IMG/VR virus record: IMGVR_UViG_3300042453_004042
Coordinates: 1-31,612 of that record
Length of the DNA: 31,612 nt
Reading direction: 5' to 3' (one strand)
Origin: a virus
In this document: positions 2,884 to 30,768 of the stretch, piece after piece
How the letters are laid out: the number at the start of each line of letters is the position of its first letter
How positions within the stretch are numbered: the first letter of the stretch is position 1
Position numbers and translations under genes: made by a program
The notes under the pieces: generated by a model
Told to the model about the DNA's origin: nothing
Seen by the model: only the letters and a program-made list of their open reading frames with translations
The model's database searches: none

Positions 2884-3339
2884 ATGAATAAATGGTTTTC
2901 AATTTCTGATATAACAAAAGAATACACATCAATAAAAGATTTCCCAGAAAATACCTATGGTTTTGTTTATATAGTAACTCATACACCAACAGGAAAAGCA
3001 TATGTTGGTAAAAAAGCTTTATATCACAACATATCTAAAAAACTTACTAAAAAAGAATTAGCGGAACAAAATGGTCCTGGAAGAAAATCTACTAAAAAAG
3101 TAATTCAAAAAGAATCTGATTGGAAAACATATCATGGATCTTCTAAACCTATTATAGAAATGATTAAAAATGGTAAAGAAGATGAATTCACTCGTGAAAT
3201 ATTAGTTATAGTTCCTAATAAAAAATTATTAACATATTATGAAACCAAAATATTATTCACACTAGGTGTATTAGAAAATCCAGAATATTACTTTAATGAT
3301 AATGTTTTAGGTAAATTTTTTGCTAAAGACTTTTTATAA
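2884..3339 (+). CDS. GIY-YIG-type nuclease, 151 aa
   Basis: The core carries a GIY-YIG signature in variant form: G-F-V-Y-I at residues 26-30, a ten-residue spacer, then Y-V-G-K-K at 40-44. A W-x-x-Y-x-G-S segment follows (80-86), and the conserved acidic residue of this fold is likely Glu120 in Y-Y-E-T-K. GIY-YIG enzymes cut DNA with one metal ion, and in phages they are often free-standing homing or host-DNA nucleases. No NUMOD or other DNA-recognition module is visible, unlike the second GIY-YIG gene at 23.7 kb, so a resident phage nuclease is as likely as a homing enzyme. The gene sits between virion genes and the primase, which is a common insertion position for mobile nucleases. Confidence 0.75.
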   Translation: MNKWFSISDITKEYTSIKDFPENTYGFVYIVTHTPTGKAYVGKKALYHNISKKLTKKELAEQNGPGRKSTKKVIQKESDWKTYHGSSKPIIEMIKNGKEDEFTREILVIVPNKKLLTYYETKILFTLGVLENPEYYFNDNVLGKFFAKDFL

Positions 3340-3361
3340 TAAAAGGCTTGGCCTTCAAAAA

Positions 3362-3369
3362 TATATTTT
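3362..3369 (+). promoter_or_regulatory. class II upstream element (TATATTTT) before primase
   Basis: TATATTTT followed by an A/T leader ending TTAAAGTT directly at ATG 3383. The same ending (AAAGTT or AAGGTT plus ATG) precedes the genes at 21477, 24855, 26081 and 30819. Promoter and/or translation-initiation function is inferred from recurrence. Confidence 0.45.
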
Positions 3370-3382
3370 ATATATTAAAGTT

Positions 3383-4315
3383 ATGTCTAATAATGCTCTA
3401 GTATTCTTAATTGATTCTGTTTTAGGTAAAGGTAAATCTACATCTAAAGGTAATAGGGCATACCATTGTCCTGAATGTAAACATCATAAATTAAAACTAG
3501 AAATTAATTTAAATGAAACATCACCTCATTTTCAGTTTTACCAATGTTGGGTGTGTGGTTTTAAAGGTAAAAAATTAACTACTTTATTTAAAAAACTAGA
3601 AGTAGATTATGATAAAATATCTCAATTAAGACTTTTAGTAAAAACTGATGGTAAACAAGTTGAAATTATTGATGATAAAAGAGCAGAATTACCTAAAGAG
3701 TTTATACTATTAATTAATCCACCATTAAATAGTTTAACCGCAAAACATGCTTTACATTATTTAAAAAATAGAGGTATTACTAAAGATGATATAATTAAGT
3801 ATAATATAGGATATTGTGAATTTGGTAAATTTGCTAATATGATTATCATTCCATCATATGATACGAATGGAAATCTCAATTATTTTACCGCAAGAAACTT
3901 CGATAAAAACTCGTCTATTAAATATAAAAATCCTGACGTAACTAGAGATATCATTGGTTTAGAACATTTTATTAATTGGAATGTACCTATCATTTTATGT
4001 GAAGGTATGTTCGATGCTATTGCTATTAAACGTAACGCGATACCATTATTAGGTAAAACAATACAAAAGAGTTTAATGAAACGTATTATCAACTCCTCAG
4101 TTGAAAAAATATATATTGCCCTAGACAAAGATGCTATTAAACAAGCGTTAAATTTTTGTGAAACACTAATGAACGAAGGTAAAGAGGTTTATTTAGTGAA
4201 TCTTGAAGATAAAGATCCTAGTGAAATGGGATTTGAAAAGTTTACTAATCTAATTCAAAACACTTTACCATTAACATTCTCAAATTTACTTGAGAAAAAA
4301 TTACAAATCATATGA
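3383..4315 (+). CDS. DnaG-type DNA primase (zinc ribbon + TOPRIM), 310 aa
   Basis: Synthesises RNA primers for phage DNA replication. Order of elements: a four-Cys zinc ribbon (Cys29/Cys32 and Cys55/Cys58), a DnaG-like core with K-N-R-G-I-T and N-I-G-Y-C near 129-145, and a TOPRIM domain with E207-G-M-F-D211 and the metal-binding D248-K-D250, then D-P-S at 278-280. Its length is close to T4 gp61 (about 340 aa) and far below bacterial DnaG, and no helicase domain is attached, so a separate helicase is expected elsewhere. I chose the ATG at 3383. An in-frame ATG at 3320 would overlap the previous gene and add 21 residues unlike the family, while 3383 carries the AAAGTT-ATG leader. It overlaps the next gene by four bases (ATGA). 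Confidence 0.9.
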   Translation: MSNNALVFLIDSVLGKGKSTSKGNRAYHCPECKHHKLKLEINLNETSPHFQFYQCWVCGFKGKKLTTLFKKLEVDYDKISQLRLLVKTDGKQVEIIDDKRAELPKEFILLINPPLNSLTAKHALHYLKNRGITKDDIIKYNIGYCEFGKFANMIIIPSYDTNGNLNYFTARNFDKNSSIKYKNPDVTRDIIGLEHFINWNVPIILCEGMFDAIAIKRNAIPLLGKTIQKSLMKRIINSSVEKIYIALDKDAIKQALNFCETLMNEGKEVYLVNLEDKDPSEMGFEKFTNLIQNTLPLTFSNLLEKKLQII

Positions 4316-11074: not shown

Positions 11075-11466
11075 TGAAATCTACTCCACGCATATTAGCA
11101 TTACAAAAACAATTTTACAACCAATATAAGGCTAATAAAAGATCTTGGGTTAAAAAATATGAGCATAATACTGAACAAGCAATGACAGGAGCAGCATTTA
11201 ATAGAGCCAAATCCGCAGCTATGAAAAATGATAAACAACGAATCAAAGAAATGGTTAAAAAGGTCTTAATGGGTCCTGAAAATCCAATTGATACTACTAC
11301 TTTAGATATCCCCTTATTAATTCGTTTATTAGAATACGCTAAAGAAGATGCTCAAACTGATATGGATTTACATAAAGTAGCAGAAAATATTATTAAGTTA
11401 TCTAAAGGAGGTAAAACTCTTACTATGAGTGATTATAACAATATAGTATCTATATCAAATGACTAA
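11074..11466 (+). CDS. conserved phage helical protein, 130 aa
   Basis: A basic N-terminal half (K/R/N-rich, W-V-K-K-Y-E-H-N-T-E-Q-A) with a helix R-I-K-E-M-V-K-K-V-L at about 56-65 resembles the recurring tag. The C-terminal half has I-P-L-L-I-R-L-L-E-Y-A-K-E-D-A followed by T-D-M-D-L-H-K-V-A-E and T-M-S-D-Y-N-N-I-V. I believe similar C-terminal segments occur as a domain in T4-like and cyanophage proteins without known function, but this is recollection. No catalytic residues stand out. The ATG overlaps the previous stop by one base, and the next gene starts eight bases before its stop. Confidence 0.75.
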   Translation: MKSTPRILALQKQFYNQYKANKRSWVKKYEHNTEQAMTGAAFNRAKSAAMKNDKQRIKEMVKKVLMGPENPIDTTTLDIPLLIRLLEYAKEDAQTDMDLHKVAENIIKLSKGGKTLTMSDYNNIVSISND

Positions 11467-11965
11467 AGACGAATTAAAAAATAAAATTAAAGATTTAGTA
11501 AAAAAAGTTTACTCAGGTGTTAGTAAATCAACCGATGTAGACTTAGATAGTCCTTCTGTTGTTTCATTAGATAATGAAAGATTTCCAGTACTAGTTAAAT
11601 TTCCTACTCTTAAAGATACTATTATTAAAATATTAACTGATCAATATGAGTTATTTTTAAAAGATATTGAATGGGTAGCACCACGTCCTACTACATTTCG
11701 TATTATATTAGGTAATGATCAAGTATTTTATCTTATATACACTGATAGAACTTGGATCGCTAAAGTTGAAGGTAAAAAATATTATTTATTAAATTTAAGT
11801 GAAGAGCAAAATTGTATAGAAGCAATAGCTAGAATTTTATCATATGGAGCTAAACCAACTCCTGAAAAAGAAAAAGCACCAGCTGAGGCTCCAGCTCCAG
11901 AATCAGCACCAGCTGATGAAGAACCAATTGAAGAACCCTCTGAAGAAACACCCCCTACTGTATAA
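11459..11965 (+). CDS. helix-tagged phage protein with Pro/Ala/Glu tail, 168 aa
   Basis: An N-terminal amphipathic helix (T-K-D-E-L-K-N-K-I-K-D-L-V-K-K-V-Y, residues 2-18) precedes a compact alpha/beta domain (about 35-135) with F-P-V-L-V-K-F-P, W-V-A-P-R-P-T-T-F-R-I and W-I-A-K-V-E-G-K-K-Y-Y-L-L-N. The last ~30 residues are a disordered Pro/Ala/Glu tail. The domain family is not one I can name. No clear L/I-x-E site follows the tag here, so tag removal is less obvious than in the neighbours. Overlaps both flanking genes (eight bases and one base). Confidence 0.75.
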   Translation: MTKDELKNKIKDLVKKVYSGVSKSTDVDLDSPSVVSLDNERFPVLVKFPTLKDTIIKILTDQYELFLKDIEWVAPRPTTFRIILGNDQVFYLIYTDRTWIAKVEGKKYYLLNLSEEQNCIEAIARILSYGAKPTPEKEKAPAEAPAPESAPADEEPIEEPSEETPPTV

Positions 11966-22282: not shown

Positions 22283-23635
22283 ATGAAAAAAATAGTAATC
22301 ATAGGCGCAGGAGTAGCAGGAATTAATGCAGCTACTAAATTAGTTGATAATGGATACCCAGGAGAACTTATCACCATTATAGATAAAGGAAATGATCCAC
22401 ACAATCGTTTACCTGAAGAAGTAATGACAGGTATGTTAGGTGCTGGAGGTTGGAGTGATGGTAAACTGACTTACCATACTGCAATTGGAGGAGTATTAAG
22501 CAAATATTGTGGTGAGGATAAAGCAATGGAATTAATGGATCAAGTTATCTCTAATTTCAGACGTTTTCACCCTAAACCAGAAGAAATATTTTGCTCTGAT
22601 CCACAAGAAGAACCTGAATTCATTAAACCATATTTTGGTTTACGTTTATTTCCTGTATGGCATATTGGTTCAAACTATTTACATGAGATTGCTAAAACAT
22701 GGTATCAATATTTAGTTGATAAAGGTGTAAAGTTTTATTGGAATTGTGAAGTTAAAGAAATCGATTTCAATAATAATTTAGTAAAATCTCAATTTGATAG
22801 GGAGGTAGTAGAAGGATTTGGTAATCACTATGACTTTGAATATAATGAACTCATATTCGCTGTAGGCAAATCAGGTATTGATTTTGGTAAACAACTAGCA
22901 GATGATTATAAATTAGAAACTGAACCTAAATCAGTACAAATAGGTGTTCGTTTTGAAGCACCACAAAAATACTTCCAAAAATTAATTGATATATCATACG
23001 ATTTTAAATTATATCAAAAACCAAATGATAAAGTATCTTTAAGATCATTTTGTACAAATAATAATGCAGCTTATGTTGCTGTAGAAGAAACTTATGGAGA
23101 CATAAGCTACAATGGGCACGCAAAGAAAGGTGAAGAATTTAGAAATGATATGACTAATTTTGGTATTTTAATGGAAATTAAAGGCATTGAAAATCCGTTT
23201 GAATGGTCAAGAGAAGTAGTTAAAAATTTACAAATGAAATTAGATTTAGATGAACCCACTAAGACAACGGGGATATATTATTCGCCTTCAAGAAAACCAT
23301 CAATAACTTCTGAAGGACAATTAGTAAATTCTCACCAAATACCTTACGAAGATGTTTTTGAAGATACCTTTAAAGCAGCAATGGGTGAATATGCTGAATA
23401 TATTCTTAATTTTATAGACCAAATGAACGAAGTATTTGAATTTGGTGATGACTATGGAATCTATATACCCGAGGTAAAATATGTCTCTGCAGAACCTCTT
23501 GTTAATTATGATGATTTAAGTCTTACAACATATAATAATGTTTATTTTGCAGGAGACGCATTATCAGCAAGAGGGATAACAGTAGCAGGTAGTCAAGGTA
23601 TATACATTGCTGAAAGCATTTTAAGAAAAGTGTAA
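22283..23635 (+). CDS. FAD-dependent dehydrogenase (COG2509-like), 450 aa
   Basis: A full-length Rossmann-type flavoprotein. I-V-I-I-G-A-G-V-A-G at 5-13 binds the FAD ADP part; G-A-G-G-W-S-D-G-K-L-T at about 53-63 matches the G-x-G-x-x-S-D-G-K-L signature of the uncharacterised COG2509 FAD-dependent dehydrogenases; S-V-Q-I-G-V-R-F-E lies mid-protein; and V-Y-F-A-G-D-A near the end followed by G-S-Q-G-I-Y-I-A-E is the second flavin-contact motif. The substrate is unknown. No domain is missing and there is no signal peptide, so it should be a cytosolic oxidoreductase. It stands alone between a terminator and a homing endonuclease gene. A flavoprotein of this kind is unusual cargo for a phage and suggests an auxiliary metabolic or nucleic-acid modification role. 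Confidence 0.85.
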   Translation: MKKIVIIGAGVAGINAATKLVDNGYPGELITIIDKGNDPHNRLPEEVMTGMLGAGGWSDGKLTYHTAIGGVLSKYCGEDKAMELMDQVISNFRRFHPKPEEIFCSDPQEEPEFIKPYFGLRLFPVWHIGSNYLHEIAKTWYQYLVDKGVKFYWNCEVKEIDFNNNLVKSQFDREVVEGFGNHYDFEYNELIFAVGKSGIDFGKQLADDYKLETEPKSVQIGVRFEAPQKYFQKLIDISYDFKLYQKPNDKVSLRSFCTNNNAAYVAVEETYGDISYNGHAKKGEEFRNDMTNFGILMEIKGIENPFEWSREVVKNLQMKLDLDEPTKTTGIYYSPSRKPSITSEGQLVNSHQIPYEDVFEDTFKAAMGEYAEYILNFIDQMNEVFEFGDDYGIYIPEVKYVSAEPLVNYDDLSLTTYNNVYFAGDALSARGITVAGSQGIYIAESILRKV

Positions 23636-24319: not shown

Positions 24320-24799
24320 ATGGCAAATAAACTAGCTCAAATAATTAGAAGTATTGTTAGAGAAGAAATAACTATATCTGAAGATCGTCTTGGTAAAGGA
24401 TTAGTTATAGTAGATCCTGAAAAAGCAGCTAAAATTAAAAGATTATACCCAGAAGATAACTATGTAGTTAAAATAATTAAAGCTATTGAAGGAGCTACTA
24501 ATTATGATATGACTAGATTAGGATATAAAGATCCTCAAACTGGAGAATTTATCAAAGGTTTATCACAAATTTTAGGTATGAAAAATACTAGATTTGGTCC
24601 TCAAGTTAAAGAACTTATAGCTAGTGGTGTTATAGCTGATAAAGCTGAAACTGCTATACCTAAAAAAGTAAAACCAGCAACTACAGGTAAAAGAGGTAGA
24701 CCATCAAGTGATGAAGATGCTTTAACTCGAAGAGTAAATAGAGCATTAAGTGAAGAACCACTTCATGAAGCATATCGAAGATTACAAAAAATCAAATAA
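24320..24799 (+). CDS. helix-tagged DNA-binding-like protein with AT-hook-like motif, 159 aa
   Basis: N-terminal tag A-N-K-L-A-Q-I-I-R-S-I-V-R-E-E-I-T-I-S-E ends I-S-E21 before D-R-L. A small helical domain (30-105) contains Y-V-V-K-I-I-K-A-I-E-G-A and L-G-Y-K-D-P-Q-T-G-E-F. A basic linker with G-K-R-G-R-P-S (about 123-129), of AT-hook type, follows, then a charged C-terminal helix (L-H-E-A-Y-R-R-L-Q-K). The arrangement suggests a packaged minor-groove DNA-binding protein, which would suit this AT-rich genome. It is separated from the main helix-tagged run by four genes, but it has the same class I element and tag. A terminator follows its stop after six bases. Confidence 0.78.
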   Translation: MANKLAQIIRSIVREEITISEDRLGKGLVIVDPEKAAKIKRLYPEDNYVVKIIKAIEGATNYDMTRLGYKDPQTGEFIKGLSQILGMKNTRFGPQVKELIASGVIADKAETAIPKKVKPATTGKRGRPSSDEDALTRRVNRALSEEPLHEAYRRLQKIK

Positions 24800-24854: not shown

Positions 24855-26027
24855 ATGATACACGATGATCTTTCCAAAATTGGAAAACAATTAATGTTTA
24901 GTGAGCCATTTTATGGTGTGTTTTTATCAACACTAAATAAAGTGATTAGAAAAGATGTTCCAACTGCTGGAGTATGTAAAAATGGAGTTAATTATCAATT
25001 AGCAGTTAATGAAGAATTTTGGAACAGTTTAAATACTGATAAGAAAAAAATTGGATTATTTAAACATGAATTACTCCATATATGTTTTGGTCACTTAACA
25101 TTTAAGGATGATTTCCCAGATCATGAATTAGCAAATGTTGCTATGGACATTGAAATTAATCAATATCTAACACCTGATTATTATCCAACACCTGATATTT
25201 TATTACCAAGTTCATTCCCAGAACTTAAATTACCATTAAAAGCGGGTGCTAGAGAATATTACAGACTATTACAAAAATCACTTGATGAAGGTACAAGTCC
25301 TGGATTATGTGAATTAATGGATAGTTTAAGAAGTGATGGTCAAGGATTACACCCAACATGGAAAGAATTTGATGATTTATCTGAAGCTGATAAAAAATTA
25401 GCTGAAGCACAATTAAGACATCAAATAAAACAAGTTTTAGAATCATCTAAAGATATGGGTTTTGTACCTTCTGAACTTAAATCGTATATTGATGATTTAC
25501 TTGAAGTTAAACAGCCTTCATATGATTGGAAAGGATATTTTAGGCGATTTTTTGGCTCATCAAGTAAAATATACACTAAAAAAACAAGACGTAAATATAA
25601 TAAACGATTTCCATCTAACCCAGCATTAAAAATTAAACCTAAAAAACATGTATTAGTAGGAATTGATACATCAGGCTCAGTTAGTGATAAAGATATATTA
25701 GAGTTTTTTAATGAAATTAATCATATGTACAAAACAGGTATTAACATCACTATAGCAGAAGGTGATGCTGATGTACATAATGTATATGAATATGATGGTA
25801 GAGTACCTGAAACTGTAACTGGTAGAGGAGGTACAGATATGAATCCATTTGTTAAATATTTTAATGAACACAGACAATATAATAGTTTAATTGTATTAAC
25901 AGACGGATATATTCCTGAAAAATCAGTTAATACTTTTAAACCTATGTTAATGGTATTATCATCAAATGGTGCAACTGTAGAATCTGTTAAAGACTTAGAT
26001 TGGGGAAATATTATAAAAATTCAATAG
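24855..26027 (+). CDS. VWA-like protein with N-terminal metallopeptidase domain (DUF2201 type), 390 aa
   Basis: The N-terminal part has F-K-H71-E-L-L-H75 with further His80, the zinc motif of the DUF2201_N putative metallopeptidase domain. A central charged helical region (125-260) includes the R-x-F-G-x-x-x-K-x-Y pattern typical of this family. The C-terminal VWA domain has the MIDAS D271-T-S-G-S275, G-G-T-D in the middle and L-T-D-G-Y near the end, a complete metal site. VWA proteins of this type work with MoxR AAA+ ATPases to remodel protein complexes; the next gene is such an ATPase. They form the start of a three-gene unit led by a class II element. Targets are unknown. Confidence 0.88.
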   Translation: MIHDDLSKIGKQLMFSEPFYGVFLSTLNKVIRKDVPTAGVCKNGVNYQLAVNEEFWNSLNTDKKKIGLFKHELLHICFGHLTFKDDFPDHELANVAMDIEINQYLTPDYYPTPDILLPSSFPELKLPLKAGAREYYRLLQKSLDEGTSPGLCELMDSLRSDGQGLHPTWKEFDDLSEADKKLAEAQLRHQIKQVLESSKDMGFVPSELKSYIDDLLEVKQPSYDWKGYFRRFFGSSSKIYTKKTRRKYNKRFPSNPALKIKPKKHVLVGIDTSGSVSDKDILEFFNEINHMYKTGINITIAEGDADVHNVYEYDGRVPETVTGRGGTDMNPFVKYFNEHRQYNSLIVLTDGYIPEKSVNTFKPMLMVLSSNGATVESVKDLDWGNIIKIQ

Positions 26028-26051
26028 TTAGGGCTCCAGGATCCTTAAACA

Positions 26052-26059
26052 TATATTTA
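26052..26059 (+). promoter_or_regulatory. class II upstream element (TATATTTA)
   Basis: TATATTTA, then a leader ending AAATAAAAGTT at ATG 26081 (21 bases between, longer than the other copies). It could give the AAA+ gene its own transcript or act only in translation. Confidence 0.45.
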
Positions 26060-26080
26060 CTCTAAATAAAAATAAAAGTT

Positions 26081-27283
26081 ATGGCTAAAGCAAAAACAAC
26101 ATCAAAATCAACAACACAACGTGTTTCATTAAATATTAATGAAGCAAAAGATTTCTTACGTCACATTATTAACAACAATCGCTATCTACAAGATAATAAT
26201 AAACCACCAGTAGCGGTTGAAATTGTAGGTGACTCAGGTATTGGTAAAACATCATCTATTGTTCAATTAAAAGATGAATTAGGATTTAATTTTGTTAAAT
26301 TGAATCTCGCTCAAATTGAAGAATTAGGTGATTTAGTTGGTTTTCCAATCCGTCAATTTGAAATGGAAAACAAAACAGAAAAAAATTGGATTGATGAACA
26401 TGCTGTAGAAGATTATCATAAAAAAGGATGGATGACTACAGGTCGTAATCAAATGAGTTATTGTCCACCTGAATGGATATCAGGTAAGGATCAAGGTGGA
26501 GTATTATTATTAGATGATTGGAATCGTGCTGACATTAGGTTTATACAAGCTGTAATGGAGCTAATTGATCGTCAAGAATATATTAGTTGGAAATTACCTA
26601 AAGATTGGCATATTATATTAACAAGTAATCCTGATAATGGAGAATATTTGGTTAATAGTATAGATAATGCTCAACGTACTCGATTTATTACTGTTGATTT
26701 AAAATTTGATATTAAATGTTGGAGTGTGTGGGCTGAAGAGAATCAAATTGATGGTCGATGTATTAACTTCTTATTAAAACACCCAGAACTAGTATCAACA
26801 AATACTAACTCAAGAAGTATTACAACGTTTTTTAATTCAATTTCATCAATTAAATCATTTGACTCTAATTTAGGTTTAATACAAATGATTGGAGAAGGAT
26901 CAGTTGGTCCTGAGTTCACAACATTATTTACAATGTTTATTAATAATAAATTGGATAAGATGATTTCACCTGAAGATATCTTATTCCATGAAAGTGAAGA
27001 ATATGTTTTAAATACACTTAAAGGTATTATTGGTAAAGGTGATAAATATAGAGCTGATTTAGCATCAATTTTATCAACTCGTCTTATTAATTATAGTTTA
27101 TTTTATGCTAAAACTACTAAGATTAGTAAAGAAATGATTGATCGTTTAGCATTCCTAATGAATGAAGATTTATTTGCTGTAGATTTAAAATATAGTATGG
27201 TTAAATCAATTTATAATGGTAATTCAGCAGCATTTAAATCATTAATGTTAAATAAAACACTTCTTAAATTTTTAACTAAATAA
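26081..27283 (+). CDS. MoxR-type AAA+ ATPase, 400 aa
   Basis: ATP-driven chaperone partner of the preceding VWA protein. Walker A is G50-D-S-G-I-G-K56-T, Walker B V-L-L-L-D145-D146, followed by N-R-A-D as in the MoxR group. Sensor 1 is T-S-N183-P-D, and R-T-R-F near 199-202 supplies the arginine finger. A basic Thr/Ser/Lys N-terminal tail (1-14) and a helical lid (250-400) complete it. MoxR-VWA pairs (RavA-ViaA, CoxD-CoxE and gas-vesicle GvpN systems are cellular examples) assemble or activate protein complexes or insert metals. A phage pair could remodel host or virion complexes. The next gene starts two bases after its stop, so the third gene is likely part of the same unit. Confidence 0.9.
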   Translation: MAKAKTTSKSTTQRVSLNINEAKDFLRHIINNNRYLQDNNKPPVAVEIVGDSGIGKTSSIVQLKDELGFNFVKLNLAQIEELGDLVGFPIRQFEMENKTEKNWIDEHAVEDYHKKGWMTTGRNQMSYCPPEWISGKDQGGVLLLDDWNRADIRFIQAVMELIDRQEYISWKLPKDWHIILTSNPDNGEYLVNSIDNAQRTRFITVDLKFDIKCWSVWAEENQIDGRCINFLLKHPELVSTNTNSRSITTFFNSISSIKSFDSNLGLIQMIGEGSVGPEFTTLFTMFINNKLDKMISPEDILFHESEEYVLNTLKGIIGKGDKYRADLASILSTRLINYSLFYAKTTKISKEMIDRLAFLMNEDLFAVDLKYSMVKSIYNGNSAAFKSLMLNKTLLKFLTK

Positions 27284-27285
27284 TT

Positions 27286-28296
27286 ATGTATATAGAAATA
27301 TCACATAGTGGTTGGGGATCTACTAGATACAGTTTTAACTGGGCGAAAACTGCGGGTTTTTTAAATAAAGAAATTGTCAATAAGTATAAAGAATTATGCG
27401 AGAAAAATAAAGACAATAAAATCCAAGACAACTCAGTAATTTATTCATCTCCATTATCAAATTACCCAGCGTATAAATTAAAAAATTATATTCAAGAAAA
27501 TAAATTGAATATTAAGAAAGCTAGAAAATGGGATAAAATAGATACTATTATTATTGATAAAGATATTTTAAATTTTTCTGAAACAGAAAAAAATAAAAAA
27601 TATATTCTTATTCCCGCTAAAGAAATTCTTGATAGTAAAAATAAATATATTGGAAAAGATAATTATTCTTATGAAAGAAATAATAAATTTCAAGATACAT
27701 TATTTTTCTATATAGATGAAGATTTACCTATCACTCATTACCATGAATTTGAACAATTTAAAAATTATCCTAAAATTGAAGGTTTTCCTGTTATGAATCG
27801 TCACGGTATGAAAAGTATATGTGATGGATTAGATTTTTTAATGGAGTTATTTGATAATATAGAAAAATATAATGTAAATGTTGTACTTGACTCATCTATA
27901 GATAAAGAAATTAATAAAGATACTGTTGTTGATTTAGAAATTTATGAGAATTTATACAGTATGTTAAATAGTAGTGACAAAGGAAACCATAAATTAGCTC
28001 GAGAAATTATAGCAAATTGTGAATACGATCAATCTAGACCGTATATTTTATTTTTAACTAGTATATTTTCTACATTAATGAATAAATCAGATAATAAAAA
28101 TTATCATGCTGTTCATAAAAATTTAAATAAAGATCGATCATATTTTAAATGGAGTTATAGAGGAGAACATTTTGATATGGTAAAACTTATTTTAGAAAAA
28201 TGTCCTGAGTATAGGCAAATATTTAGTCGATGTATGAAAATACATATAAATAGTTTATATAAATTTGATTTAGTTAAAGAAATAATATCTGTCTAA
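27286..28296 (+). CDS. unknown protein, third gene of the VWA/AAA+ unit, 336 aa
   Basis: I recognise no family. The protein is Lys/Asn/Ile/Tyr-rich and soluble-looking, with no membrane segment. Visible features are an N-terminal I-S-H-S-G-W-G-S-T-R-Y-S-F-N-W, a T-I-I-I-D-K-D strand (about 86-92), an acidic aromatic middle (L-F-F-Y-I-D-E-D, about 144-151), H-Y-H-E-F-E-Q-F, and a helical C-terminal half with R-E-I-I-A-N-C-E-Y-D and L-I-L-E-K-C-P-E-Y. Translation follows the AAA+ gene after two bases, so it may be a substrate, adaptor or regulator of the VWA-ATPase pair. Codon and base use look like its neighbours. The next gene is preceded by a class I element, marking the unit's end. Confidence 0.7.
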   Translation: MYIEISHSGWGSTRYSFNWAKTAGFLNKEIVNKYKELCEKNKDNKIQDNSVIYSSPLSNYPAYKLKNYIQENKLNIKKARKWDKIDTIIIDKDILNFSETEKNKKYILIPAKEILDSKNKYIGKDNYSYERNNKFQDTLFFYIDEDLPITHYHEFEQFKNYPKIEGFPVMNRHGMKSICDGLDFLMELFDNIEKYNVNVVLDSSIDKEINKDTVVDLEIYENLYSMLNSSDKGNHKLAREIIANCEYDQSRPYILFLTSIFSTLMNKSDNKNYHAVHKNLNKDRSYFKWSYRGEHFDMVKLILEKCPEYRQIFSRCMKIHINSLYKFDLVKEIISV

Positions 28297-28317: not shown

Positions 28318-28800
28318 ATGGCCAAAATTGTACTACTAAGTTGTACTAAATCTAAATTAGATCGTAGGGCTCCCGCACAGGAGCTCTACTCCGCTTCTCC
28401 TATGTTTAAAAAAACATTAGAATACGGTAAATCACTCCAACCAGATAAAATGTACATCCTCTCAGCCAAACATCATTTAGTTCCTTTAAACAAAGAATTA
28501 GCGCCTTATGATAAAACTCTTAAGGAAATGCCTGCGGATGAAAAAGAAAAATGGGGAGAAGAAACAGTAAAGCAAATGAAATCTGCTGGTCTTAATTTAA
28601 ATAAAGATAAGTTTATATTTTTAACTGGTAGTGAATATATGAAACCATTAACTAAATATATTCCTGATTCTAATATAGAAAAACCTATGGAAGGCAGAAG
28701 AATGGGAGAACGTTTAAAATGGTTAAATACCCAAATTAGTAAACTAAATGAATTATTTAACAAAGTAAAAAACATGATTTATGAGTGCTTATCTAAATAA
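28318..28800 (+). CDS. DUF6884-like protein, 160 aa
   Basis: Opens K-I-V-L-L-S-C-T-K-S-K-L (3-14), followed by A-P-A-Q-E-L-Y-S-A-S, M-Y-I-L-S-A-K-H-H-L-V near 45-55 and P-Y-D-K-T-L, which is the layout of DUF6884 proteins found in phages and bacteria. The S-C-T/S-K-S-K start and S-A-K-H-x-L motif suggest a small Rossmann-like enzyme or binding domain; relatives have been linked to nucleic-acid base metabolism, but I would not assign an activity. A class I element lies 11 bases upstream. The C-terminal 20 residues form a helix and its coding end overlaps the next start by 20 bases. Confidence 0.75.
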   Translation: MAKIVLLSCTKSKLDRRAPAQELYSASPMFKKTLEYGKSLQPDKMYILSAKHHLVPLNKELAPYDKTLKEMPADEKEKWGEETVKQMKSAGLNLNKDKFIFLTGSEYMKPLTKYIPDSNIEKPMEGRRMGERLKWLNTQISKLNELFNKVKNMIYECLSK

Positions 28801-29005
28801 AGTAATAGAATTATACCTTAATGACTTATCAGATTATGATGCTGGTGAGGTATTATTAGCCGAATCAGCTTTAAAACCTATGAGACAATTAATAACAGAA
28901 GGTAAAAAAAATCAAAACCAAATTATACTTGAAACCTTTAAAAATGCTTCTCCTGAACATCAAGTTATTATAGAAGACTTTTTAATTTACATGAGAGAAT
29001 TATAA
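28781..29005 (+). CDS. small acidic protein, 74 aa, unknown
   Basis: A short helical, acidic protein (Y-L-N-K-V-I-E-L-Y-L-N-D-L-S-D-Y-D at 4-20, then A-L-K-P-M-R-Q-L-I-T-E-G-K-K-N and D-F-L-I-Y-M-R-E-L). The Q-L-I-T-E-G segment contains an L/I-x-E site. No recognised family. It starts 20 bases inside the preceding gene and its stop shares a base with the start of the tail fibre gene, so it looks like a coupled gene, perhaps a virion assembly factor or chaperone for the fibre; this role is a guess from position. Confidence 0.6.
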   Translation: MSAYLNKVIELYLNDLSDYDAGEVLLAESALKPMRQLITEGKKNQNQIILETFKNASPEHQVIIEDFLIYMREL

Positions 29006-30768
29006 TGGGTGGAGTCAGTAAATCACTAATACGGAGAATATTAGTTAATGATGCCATCCAGGCTCAACAAGCTGATATAGCTACTACTTCTACTTCAGCC
29101 ACAAGTGCTAGCTATGCTTTAACAGCTAGTTATGCTATGAATGGAGGTGGAGGTGGAGGTACAACAACAGGTTCATTTACTGGTTCATTTACCGGAAGTT
29201 TATTAGGGACAGCCTCTTATGCTTTAACCGCCTCATATGCTTTAAATGGAGGAGGCAGTGTAGATACTTCATCTTTAGTCACAACTGCTTCTTTTAATGC
29301 TTTTACTGGGTCATATAATACTGGTTCATTTACTGGTTCATTTACCGGAAGTTTATTAGGGACAGCCTCATATGCTCTAACAGCCTCATTCTTATCAGGA
29401 AGTGTTACCTCAGCTAGTTATGCTCTTACTTCTAGTTATACACAAGTTACAGATAAAATAAATGTAATAAATGGTAGTTCTTTAGCAGCGGAATTTTATC
29501 CTGTTATAGTTGATGATTTAGGGAATATGATTCCTTATTTAGATACTAGTTTTAATTATACTCCTTCAACTAATCAATTAAATGTAGGAGGAATAACTAG
29601 TAGTTTATTAGGAACTGCTTCCCAAGCTTTAACAGCCTCATATCTCTCAGGAAATGCTTTATCAGCAAGTTATGCTTTAAGTAGTTCATATGCTTTATCA
29701 TCTTCATTCTCATCAACAGCATCATATGTTAGGGCCCCTGGAATAGACGGAGAATTATTATTTAACACTAACGGAAATATAAATGCTCAATCAACTCCTA
29801 GTCTAATATATGACTCAGCATCAAAAGTATTATCTATTAACTCTGTTAACGCTGGCCCAACATTAAGAATTAATCCCCCCAGCACAGATGGGTTGTATTT
29901 AGGGACTCAAGGAGGAGGAGAATCAGGGTTATATGATAATGGGTCAGATTTTGTACTGGCAGAACTTACACAAGATACATTTTTTAATTATTCCGATAGA
30001 AATTATAAATTTAAATCTAGTAATATAATACATGAATTTACCGGGTCAATGTTTGTAACGGCAGGCATAACCGGTTCACTATTTGGTACTGCTTCATGGG
30101 CTACAACAGCATCCTATATATTAAATGTAGTTAGTTCTTCCTTTGCATCAACTGCTTCTTCAGTTATAAACGGATTAGGAGCAGAAAATTATAAACGACC
30201 ATCTAGATGGCATGTTGTATCATCAATTGATACAGCAACCTTATCTACAATTGCTGTTACTTCAGGATCAGCGGGAGGAATAACAACATTGATTGTACCC
30301 TTTGTAATAACTAAACCAACTACAATTACATCAATGTCTTTTGAGGTAACTAGTGCTCCTGCAACTCTATCATCGGCTTCTGTAGGAATATATAGTTCTA
30401 ATATAGACACGACTCTTCCTAATTTTTTAATAACATCTATGAGTAATATAGGAGTTACTACTGGGGCAGGTCGAGTATATAGCGGCTCATTAACCACCGG
30501 AGCTATTACATTAAATTCAGGACTATATTATACCGCGTTTCAACATAGTGGTAGTGCAACTATGACTGTACGCTCAATACCAAATGGTTCTATACCAAAT
30601 ATTATAGGTTTAACTACACCTGGTAATACAAGCGTACTTAATTATTATGCGGGTGTGAGATCATCAGCGGGATCAGCTGCCTTTTTACCATCGTCTACAT
30701 CATCTTTTACAACTATGAATCCATTAACCGCAACTTCACAACCAGCTATATGGATTTTATTTAGTTAA
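29005..30768 (+). CDS. tail fibre / receptor-binding protein with GTASYAL repeats, 587 aa
   Basis: A virion adhesin. The N-terminal ~30 residues (S-K-S-L-I-R-R-I-L-V-N-D-A) probably dock to the tail. Residues about 30-260 consist of repeats of G-S-F-T-G-S and G-T-A-S-Y-A-L-T-A-S-Y in tandem, with poly-Gly spacers, giving a trimeric beta-rich shaft of the sort seen in tail fibres of many environmental tailed phages. A mid region (250-380) lacks repeats, and the C-terminal ~190 residues (from about R-P-S-R-W-H-V-V) form a distinct Ser/Thr-rich beta domain, likely the host-binding tip. A 47-base exact DNA repeat within the shaft shows recent duplication. No intramolecular chaperone or peptidase is visible. 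Confidence 0.88.
   Translation: MGGVSKSLIRRILVNDAIQAQQADIATTSTSATSASYALTASYAMNGGGGGGTTTGSFTGSFTGSLLGTASYALTASYALNGGGSVDTSSLVTTASFNAFTGSYNTGSFTGSFTGSLLGTASYALTASFLSGSVTSASYALTSSYTQVTDKINVINGSSLAAEFYPVIVDDLGNMIPYLDTSFNYTPSTNQLNVGGITSSLLGTASQALTASYLSGNALSASYALSSSYALSSSFSSTASYVRAPGIDGELLFNTNGNINAQSTPSLIYDSASKVLSINSVNAGPTLRINPPSTDGLYLGTQGGGESGLYDNGSDFVLAELTQDTFFNYSDRNYKFKSSNIIHEFTGSMFVTAGITGSLFGTASWATTASYILNVVSSSFASTASSVINGLGAENYKRPSRWHVVSSIDTATLSTIAVTSGSAGGITTLIVPFVITKPTTITSMSFEVTSAPATLSSASVGIYSSNIDTTLPNFLITSMSNIGVTTGAGRVYSGSLTTGAITLNSGLYYTAFQHSGSATMTVRSIPNGSIPNIIGLTTPGNTSVLNYYAGVRSSAGSAAFLPSSTSSFTTMNPLTATSQPAIWILFS
29170..29216 (+). repeat. 47-base direct repeat, copy 1, in the fibre shaft
   Basis: Identical over 47 bases to 29323-29369 in the same frame; it encodes G-S-F-T-G-S-F-T-G-S-L-L-G-T-A. 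Identity at DNA level, including third positions, indicates recent duplication or gene conversion. Confidence 0.9.
29323..29369 (+). repeat. 47-base direct repeat, copy 2, in the fibre shaft
   Basis: Second exact copy of the sequence at 29170-29216, 153 bases (51 codons) downstream in the same frame. Confidence 0.9.

Follow-up and report, generated by a model that had tools for sequence, protein, structure and literature searches.

We find that an uncultured phage couples a VWA-metallopeptidase protein and a MoxR-like AAA+ ATPase to a third protein, here called G3, whose association with the pair is near-obligatory and which evolves faster than its neighbouring genes. The three genes lie on the + strand at 24855-28296 of the 31.6-kb virus record IMGVR_UViG_3300042453_004042, analysed at its full length of 31,612 nucleotides (hereafter the window). 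Structure models suggest that G3 combines a BRCT-like N-terminal half, an assignment we consider likely, with an ARM/HEAT-like C-terminal domain. We tentatively propose that the three genes encode one machine, a phage remodelling device that G3 would aim at complexes on phage DNA.

24855..26027, + strand: DUF2201 VWA protein, 390 amino acids; Pfam PF13203 and PF09967 over cut-off; PHROG family phrog_1314
26081..27283, + strand: MoxR-like AAA+ ATPase, 400 amino acids; phrog_1297 'ATPase' at 7.3e-32; Walker A GDSGIGKT, Walker B LLLDDWN
27286..28296, + strand: G3, the third gene, 336 amino acids; 2 nucleotides after the ATPase stop; modelled with AlphaFold2 and compared with VIA-align; beside the pair in 66 of 67 loci with room for it

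Coupling of G3 to the VWA/AAA+ pair

Relatives of the cassette were gathered from IMG/VR in three scans with G3 proteins and one with the VWA protein. They fall into two clades: clade 1 is window-like, with VWA proteins 64–94% identical to that of the window, and clade 2 has VWA proteins that are 41–51% identical. The loci found with the VWA protein are the best 80 of 122 matching stretches (56 clade-1 and 24 clade-2), and some contigs of the G3 scans recur among them. Since several loci overlap or come from near-identical contigs, all counts given here refer to loci, not to independent events. Tandem G3 copies and short G3 relatives of clade 2, partly missed by single-sequence searches, were recovered with a profile.

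How tightly is G3 bound to the pair? The ATPase gene is present in 78 of the 80 VWA-found loci, and in the remaining two (L011 and L064) the available sequence ends with the VWA gene. With these two set aside, along with 11 loci having less than 600 nucleotides beyond the ATPase (three with G3, eight without), 67 pair loci remain, and in 66 of them the ATPase is followed by G3; among all 69 loci with G3 in this set, it lies at most 30 nucleotides from the ATPase in 64. Viewed from the other side, 54 of the 64 loci found with G3 have the ATPase directly upstream (53 at 30 nucleotides or less), and none shows G3 away from the pair, the other ten ending within 300 nucleotides and hence too close to judge. 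In all of 12 large contigs (62–163 kb), every full-length G3 stands at the pair; one of them contains a short, weak match to the G3 C-terminal domain elsewhere (E 6e-4). The initial annotation had assigned the third gene to the pair and named its separate occurrence in related phages as the observation that would speak against this; no such occurrence was encountered, and the coupling is near-obligatory.

The three genes were also compared in their divergence across 29 contigs, namely the window plus 28 distinct loci of clade 1 whose genes are long. Pairwise identities of the ATPase correlate with those of the VWA protein (0.77) and of G3 (0.71), and at 0.22 with those of DUF6884, the gene product encoded next downstream; the sequence pairs underlying these values are not independent. 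Median pairwise identity is 0.36 for G3 versus 0.81 for the ATPase, 0.71 for the VWA protein and 0.74 for DUF6884, so that G3 evolves faster than the genes around it. Within clade-1 G3, residues 50-90 (0.64) and 210-260 (0.54) form conserved stretches, and an insertion at 91-180 stands at 0.29.

G3 belongs to no known family, as had been claimed from the sequence: Pfam, PHROG, NCBIfam and PADLOC contain nothing that matches it, and a tblastn search of 50,697 phage records gave no hit, either for it or, at E 1, for two clade-2 G3 proteins. Its many relatives are in IMG/VR. Searches of a bacterial and archaeal genome collection, reaching close relatives only, returned 46 pattern stretches for G3, none of them a relative, and 25 for the ATPase, with no relative confirmed. 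G3 is absent from all five records of crAss001, a Moorella phage, S-TIM54, Kc283 and immuto; the third gene of the Moorella phage (353 amino acids) was considered as a G3 and rejected, there being no match at maximum sensitivity.

The closest isolate found to the window is Flavobacterium phage vB_FspM_immuto_2-6A (immuto), with which it has in common a block of primase, nuclease, NadR-like and nucleotidase genes (38–54% identity). Because immuto carries this block, the host is probably a flavobacterium; the carriers of the cassette are uncultured, probably Flavobacterium-type phages. Immuto itself is without the cassette, which is therefore not universal in this phage group.

Predicted architecture of the three proteins

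The AlphaFold2 model of the window's G3 (predicted local distance difference test score, pLDDT, 90.7; predicted template-modelling score, pTM, 0.80) consists of an N-terminal piece, a BRCT-like domain (about residues 50-90 and 181-209) into which an insertion (91-180) is placed, and a helical C-terminal domain (about 210-336). Residues 51-90 and 182-209 run strand-helix-strand-strand and then helix-strand-helix, an order that fits the BRCT fold. In VIA-align, a PARP BRCT domain (Z 4.5, root-mean-square deviation (rmsd) 3.5, 77 residues) is tied at the top with an unrelated entry, and more BRCT entries follow, interspersed with other alpha/beta folds. The second model, that of a clade-2 paralogue (L069:9512-10684), has a low pLDDT of 60 overall, with 75–92 over most of its core. 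Four of its 50 listed VIA-align entries start on the N-terminal half, and all four are BRCT domains: PARP BRCT 2le0 (Z 6.3, rmsd 2.6, 75 residues), the 7scy BRCT (Z 5.7), the DNA ligase DNLJ (Z 5.6) and the Sir4 H-BRCT (Z 5.2). The remaining entries are mostly ARM/HEAT repeats on the C-terminal part, the best with Z 7.0. One of the two models drew on 51 of 53 non-redundant G3 sequences, the other on 30. A guess that the third protein is an adaptor or substrate of the pair is strengthened by this predicted pairing of a BRCT-like with an ARM/HEAT-like module.

Several results count against the BRCT assignment. A VIA-align Z as high as about 8 may reflect no more than a common arrangement, and the BRCT hidden Markov models (HMMs) stay below every curated cut-off: over 51 G3 members, BRCT_2 matches two (best E 0.0039) and BRCT one (0.0074). 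These E-values are weak evidence, because a match at window position 11411-11644, rejected as chance for the two stops inside it, reached E 4.7e-5. Foldseek found nothing in the PDB under E 0.001 for either model, and a profile search of PDB sequences gave no more than a 20-residue match at E 0.55. In favour of the assignment, the two BRCT models, run over 20 phage contigs (1.68 Mb), yielded five matches, all inside the second tandem G3 copy, in three contigs; their best scores were 21.6 bits (cut-off 27.3) and 18.2 bits (cut-off 21.3). On balance we regard the N-terminal half of G3 as likely BRCT-like, a suggestive assignment in our own judgement, and the C-terminal domain as ARM/HEAT-like according to the models. 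A Foldseek search of viral models retrieved four phage proteins, all uncharacterised, with E from 7e-13 to 2e-4; two come from a single phage. An Hsp33 match in a G3 paralogue (4.6e-5, 22.5 of 346 bits) was too weak and was rejected.

The VWA protein matches PF13203 (DUF2201_N) at 51.3 bits (cut-off 23.2) and PF09967 (DUF2201 VWA) at 39.5 bits (cut-off 26.4). Its N-terminal domain is zincin-like, with HELLH at residues 71-75 and a conserved D98; its C-terminal VWA domain bears the metal-ion-dependent adhesion site (MIDAS) D271-T-S-G-S275 / T327 / D350. The intact HELLH and MIDAS reported earlier are thus borne out, and each of the 70 distinct relatives retains HExxH, DTSGS, T327, D350 and D98. 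The peptidase domain is probably active. Altogether, 215 phage records match this protein. Its family, phrog_1314, is labelled HNH endonuclease, a label that is repeated in many phage records, has no backing in the Pfam result and looks like a propagated mis-annotation. At L035:405-1900, the VWA frame is broken in two (261 and 102 residues), either a damaged gene or an assembly error.

For the ATPase, AAA_5 (19.4 of 22 bits) and AAA_3 (15.2 of 27) remain under their Pfam cut-offs, and we therefore term it only MoxR-like, by its partner and gene arrangement. The pair of MoxR-VWA plan recognised initially is supported. The view that the ATPase has all AAA+ motifs holds for Walker A (GDSGIGKT) and fails for Walker B (LLLDDWN), which reads Asp-Asp, without the catalytic Glu. 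D145-D146 are invariant in 66 of 66 relatives and in 23 of 23 in another set. Among 14 other sequences compared, nine contained the motif (one a duplicate) and five did not. The pattern thus caught it in eight distinct AAA proteins from phages or faecal contigs, and all of them have DE. An Asp at the catalytic place of an AAA+ Walker B usually slows ATP hydrolysis; the phage ATPase may for this reason be slow or regulated.

Homing elements have landed in or beside the ATPase gene more than once. At L081:7298-8879, the ATPase frame recognised by HMM is immediately preceded by a group I intron (Rfam RF00028, 81.6 bits), accompanied by a homing-endonuclease-like open reading frame (ORF). At L085:7338-9598, an ORF similar to that of L081 splits the ATPase gene, with no Rfam match at the gathering score, and at L068:7248-7979 an endonuclease-like ORF stands between the VWA and ATPase genes. 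Since elements of this type favour conserved genes as insertion sites, their presence here is a further sign of constraint.

Genomic setting and candidate roles

What might the trio act upon? In clade 2, the cassette is embedded in a replication block whose order, on one strand, is DnaB, (Sak4), a 247-residue protein, primase, a short protein, VWA, ATPase, one or two G3 copies, an exonuclease VIII-like protein and DNA polymerase. Many of the 24 loci are truncated; primase is present in 23, DnaB in 19, DNA polymerase in 10, Sak4 in 9 and the exonuclease in 15 (all 15 loci with at least 5 kb downstream). The 247-residue protein, found in 21 and otherwise unassigned, was given an SSB-like (single-stranded-DNA-binding-like) label by eye. 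The short protein 5' of the VWA gene, which matches the G3 C-terminal domain only, occurs in 19 of 24 loci, and in part of clade 2 G3 is duplicated beside one pair. This neighbourhood points to DNA transactions.

In clade 1, a DUF6884 gene follows G3 within 40 nucleotides in 47 of the 48 loci with room for it, and in none of the 24 clade-2 loci. Pfam's authors liken DUF6884 to YaaA and note a putative DNA-binding cleft, and its member YfjM was found among DNA-lesion binders (PMC11701544). The genes downstream of G3 in the window are:

28318..28800, + strand: DUF6884 (YaaA-like), fourth cassette gene, in the window's clade only; PF21818 at 1e-40
28781..29005, + strand: 74-residue protein; overlaps the DUF6884 gene by 20 nucleotides and is conserved with it; matches in 57 of 91 sequences including the window
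29005-30768, after the cassette: fibre-like protein, 587 residues, with many GTASYALTASYA-type repeats; matches in 5 of 91 sequences including the window

Upstream, the window encodes at 22283-23635 an FAD-dependent oxidoreductase-like protein; such a gene is unusual in a phage, and 29 of 45 distinct neighbourhoods have it on the 5' side of the cassette. Directly 5' of the cassette (24320-24799) is a 159-residue protein with matches in 17 of 91 sequences including the window; its KRGRPSS motif is AT-hook-like.

Our proposal, which we hold to be possible rather than probable, is that the AAA+ protein would form a ring that remodels proteins, as is known of NorQD and other MoxR-VWA pairs, with the VWA protein as its co-chaperone bearing the probably active zincin domain. 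G3 would be the targeting adaptor that brings both to their target. Its ARM/HEAT-like module would contact the machine by docking on the pair, as the reuse of this module in the separate short protein beside the same pair suggests; the BRCT-like part would select the target and, together with the variable insertion, meet it. Because of the gene setting, the most likely targets would be proteins acting on phage DNA, that is, phage or host complexes in replication, recombination, repair or packaging, which may be taken apart, activated or cleaved. In a bolder and quite improbable version, the trio would be a counterpart of the eukaryotic DNA–protein-crosslink or replisome-unloading machinery, in which a zincin and an AAA+ unfoldase with a BRCT/ARM adaptor act on proteins stuck on phage DNA, and DUF6884 would help as a lesion-binder in the window's clade. 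Such stuck proteins would be stalled replisomes, host roadblocks or crosslinked proteins.

A number of observations weigh against a machine for complexes on phage DNA. The whole immuto genome has no G3 or VWA match, and in two immuto stretches examined neither of these nor the ATPase was found. One 11-kb clade-1 contig (L016), the sole exception among the 67, has the pair without G3. Clade-2 primase, DnaB and exonuclease queries match none of 56 clade-1 loci (divergent ones could be missed), and the window's own primase (3320-4315) lies 20 kb from the cassette. A terminase is near the cassette in 40 of 56 clade-1 loci, the pair of cyanophage S-TIM54 is one small gene from a virion structural gene, and some N4-like phages have the pair near the mid-phase structural module (PMC4193335).

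The terminase and the S-TIM54 arrangement, together with the fibre-like gene after the window's cassette, favour the main rival, which we judge unlikely: an assembly chaperone with a processing peptidase, in which the pair remodels or clips structural proteins and G3 is a scaffold or structural client. Virion assembly has been proposed for jumbo-phage MoxR-vWA-metallopeptidase pairs (PMC7824862), and the p618/p892 pair of the archaeal virus ATV is tied to tail development (PMC4124505). However, clade-2 cassettes lie inside the replication block, where the clade-1 terminase query, which might miss a divergent form, matches none of 24 loci; immuto, which shares the window's primase-to-nucleotidase block, has a full structural set without the cassette; and the N4 homologues are middle genes (PMC4193335). 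Virion assembly, one of the roles suggested at the outset, thus keeps some plausibility, but the primase, DnaB, exonuclease VIII and DNA polymerase of clade 2 point elsewhere.

G3 might instead be the client of the pair and be matured or activated by it, much as the cellular NorQD pair is dedicated to one enzyme, nitric oxide reductase (PMC13036017). One-to-one coupling would fit, but G3 resembles two interaction modules and finds no enzyme match in the libraries, diverges far more than the ATPase and is duplicated beside a single pair in some clade-2 loci; we consider this improbable. Least probable in our view is a conflict system countering host defences or rival phages, comparable to the bacterial vWA-MoxR ternary systems VMAP and iSTAND, whose general plan of AAA, VWA and a fast-evolving third part it shares (PMC7159879). 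The DUF6884 protein matches the PADLOC candidate defence protein PDC-M57A (4.9e-49), and the patchy presence of the cassette, missing from immuto, would be in keeping with it. Against this stand the lack of a PADLOC match for the VWA protein, the ATPase and G3, the failure of the search for close relatives of G3 or the ATPase in bacterial and archaeal genomes to confirm any, and the embedding of the cassette in the clade-2 replication block. A role in membrane stress, suggested by the initial annotation, or in a respiratory complex drew support from no tool and was set aside.

Comparison with known systems

VWA-metallopeptidases are widespread yet unexplained in large and N4-like phages. A near-obligate partner with a readable architecture offers a handle on the target of the VWA protein and sets two testable roles, in DNA metabolism and in virion assembly, against each other. 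In the unrelated phages Moorella MTATph1, Kc283, XC38 and K479, the VWA gene lies at most two genes from a DNA helicase, with a polymerase close in two of them; in Vibrio phage Va1 and its relatives, it is far from the ATPase match. Since most genes are unnamed in the eight other phage neighbourhoods read, proximity to a helicase is a tendency only. N4 gp24 and gp25 are listed as an ATPase and a vWFA protein of no stated function (PMC2784036), and both are middle genes (PMC4193335). These Schitoviridae proteins resemble the window's in a homologous VWA (24–28% identity), a nearby AAA gene and a middle/replication setting; they differ in that N4-type phages place the AAA gene first, Kc283 is without G3 and ort11 has a Walker B DE.

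Among characterised MoxR-VWA pairs, NorQD serves a single target, and its VWA protein inserts a finger into the pore of the AAA+ hexamer, the resulting force remodelling a linker needed for metal insertion into that target (PMC13036017). ATV p618/p892 is, like the phage pair, a viral MoxR-VWA pair, and its interaction was shown (PMC4124505); unlike the phage pair, it is reported to be without a peptidase domain (PMC7824862) and has its role in tail development. VMAP and iSTAND share the three-part logic with a variable third component, yet the VMAP-C domain has been described as mixed alpha/beta (PMC7159879), which sets it apart, by description, from the BRCT-like domain and helical repeats predicted for G3.

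The predicted BRCT-like domain itself is comparable to those of PARP1 and bacterial DNA ligase in strand/helix order and in the clade-2 paralogue's Z values of 6.3 and 5.6, and differs in its insertion of about 90 residues, in scores under the Pfam cut-offs and in its fusion to ARM/HEAT-like helices. Our literature searches found no paper joining BRCT, MoxR and phage. The phage VWA-metallopeptidase/AAA+ pair as such is already published: a jumbo-phage MoxR-vWA pair has the same two-gene plan, with an N-terminal metallopeptidase fused to VWA (PMC7824862). As far as the literature searches reach, the new elements are the near-obligate BRCT-like partner, the Walker B DD and the replication-block setting. 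Where the available sections of that account name no third protein, the window's type has a near-obligate G3 and a Walker B DD, and its relatives' contigs measure up to 163 kb.

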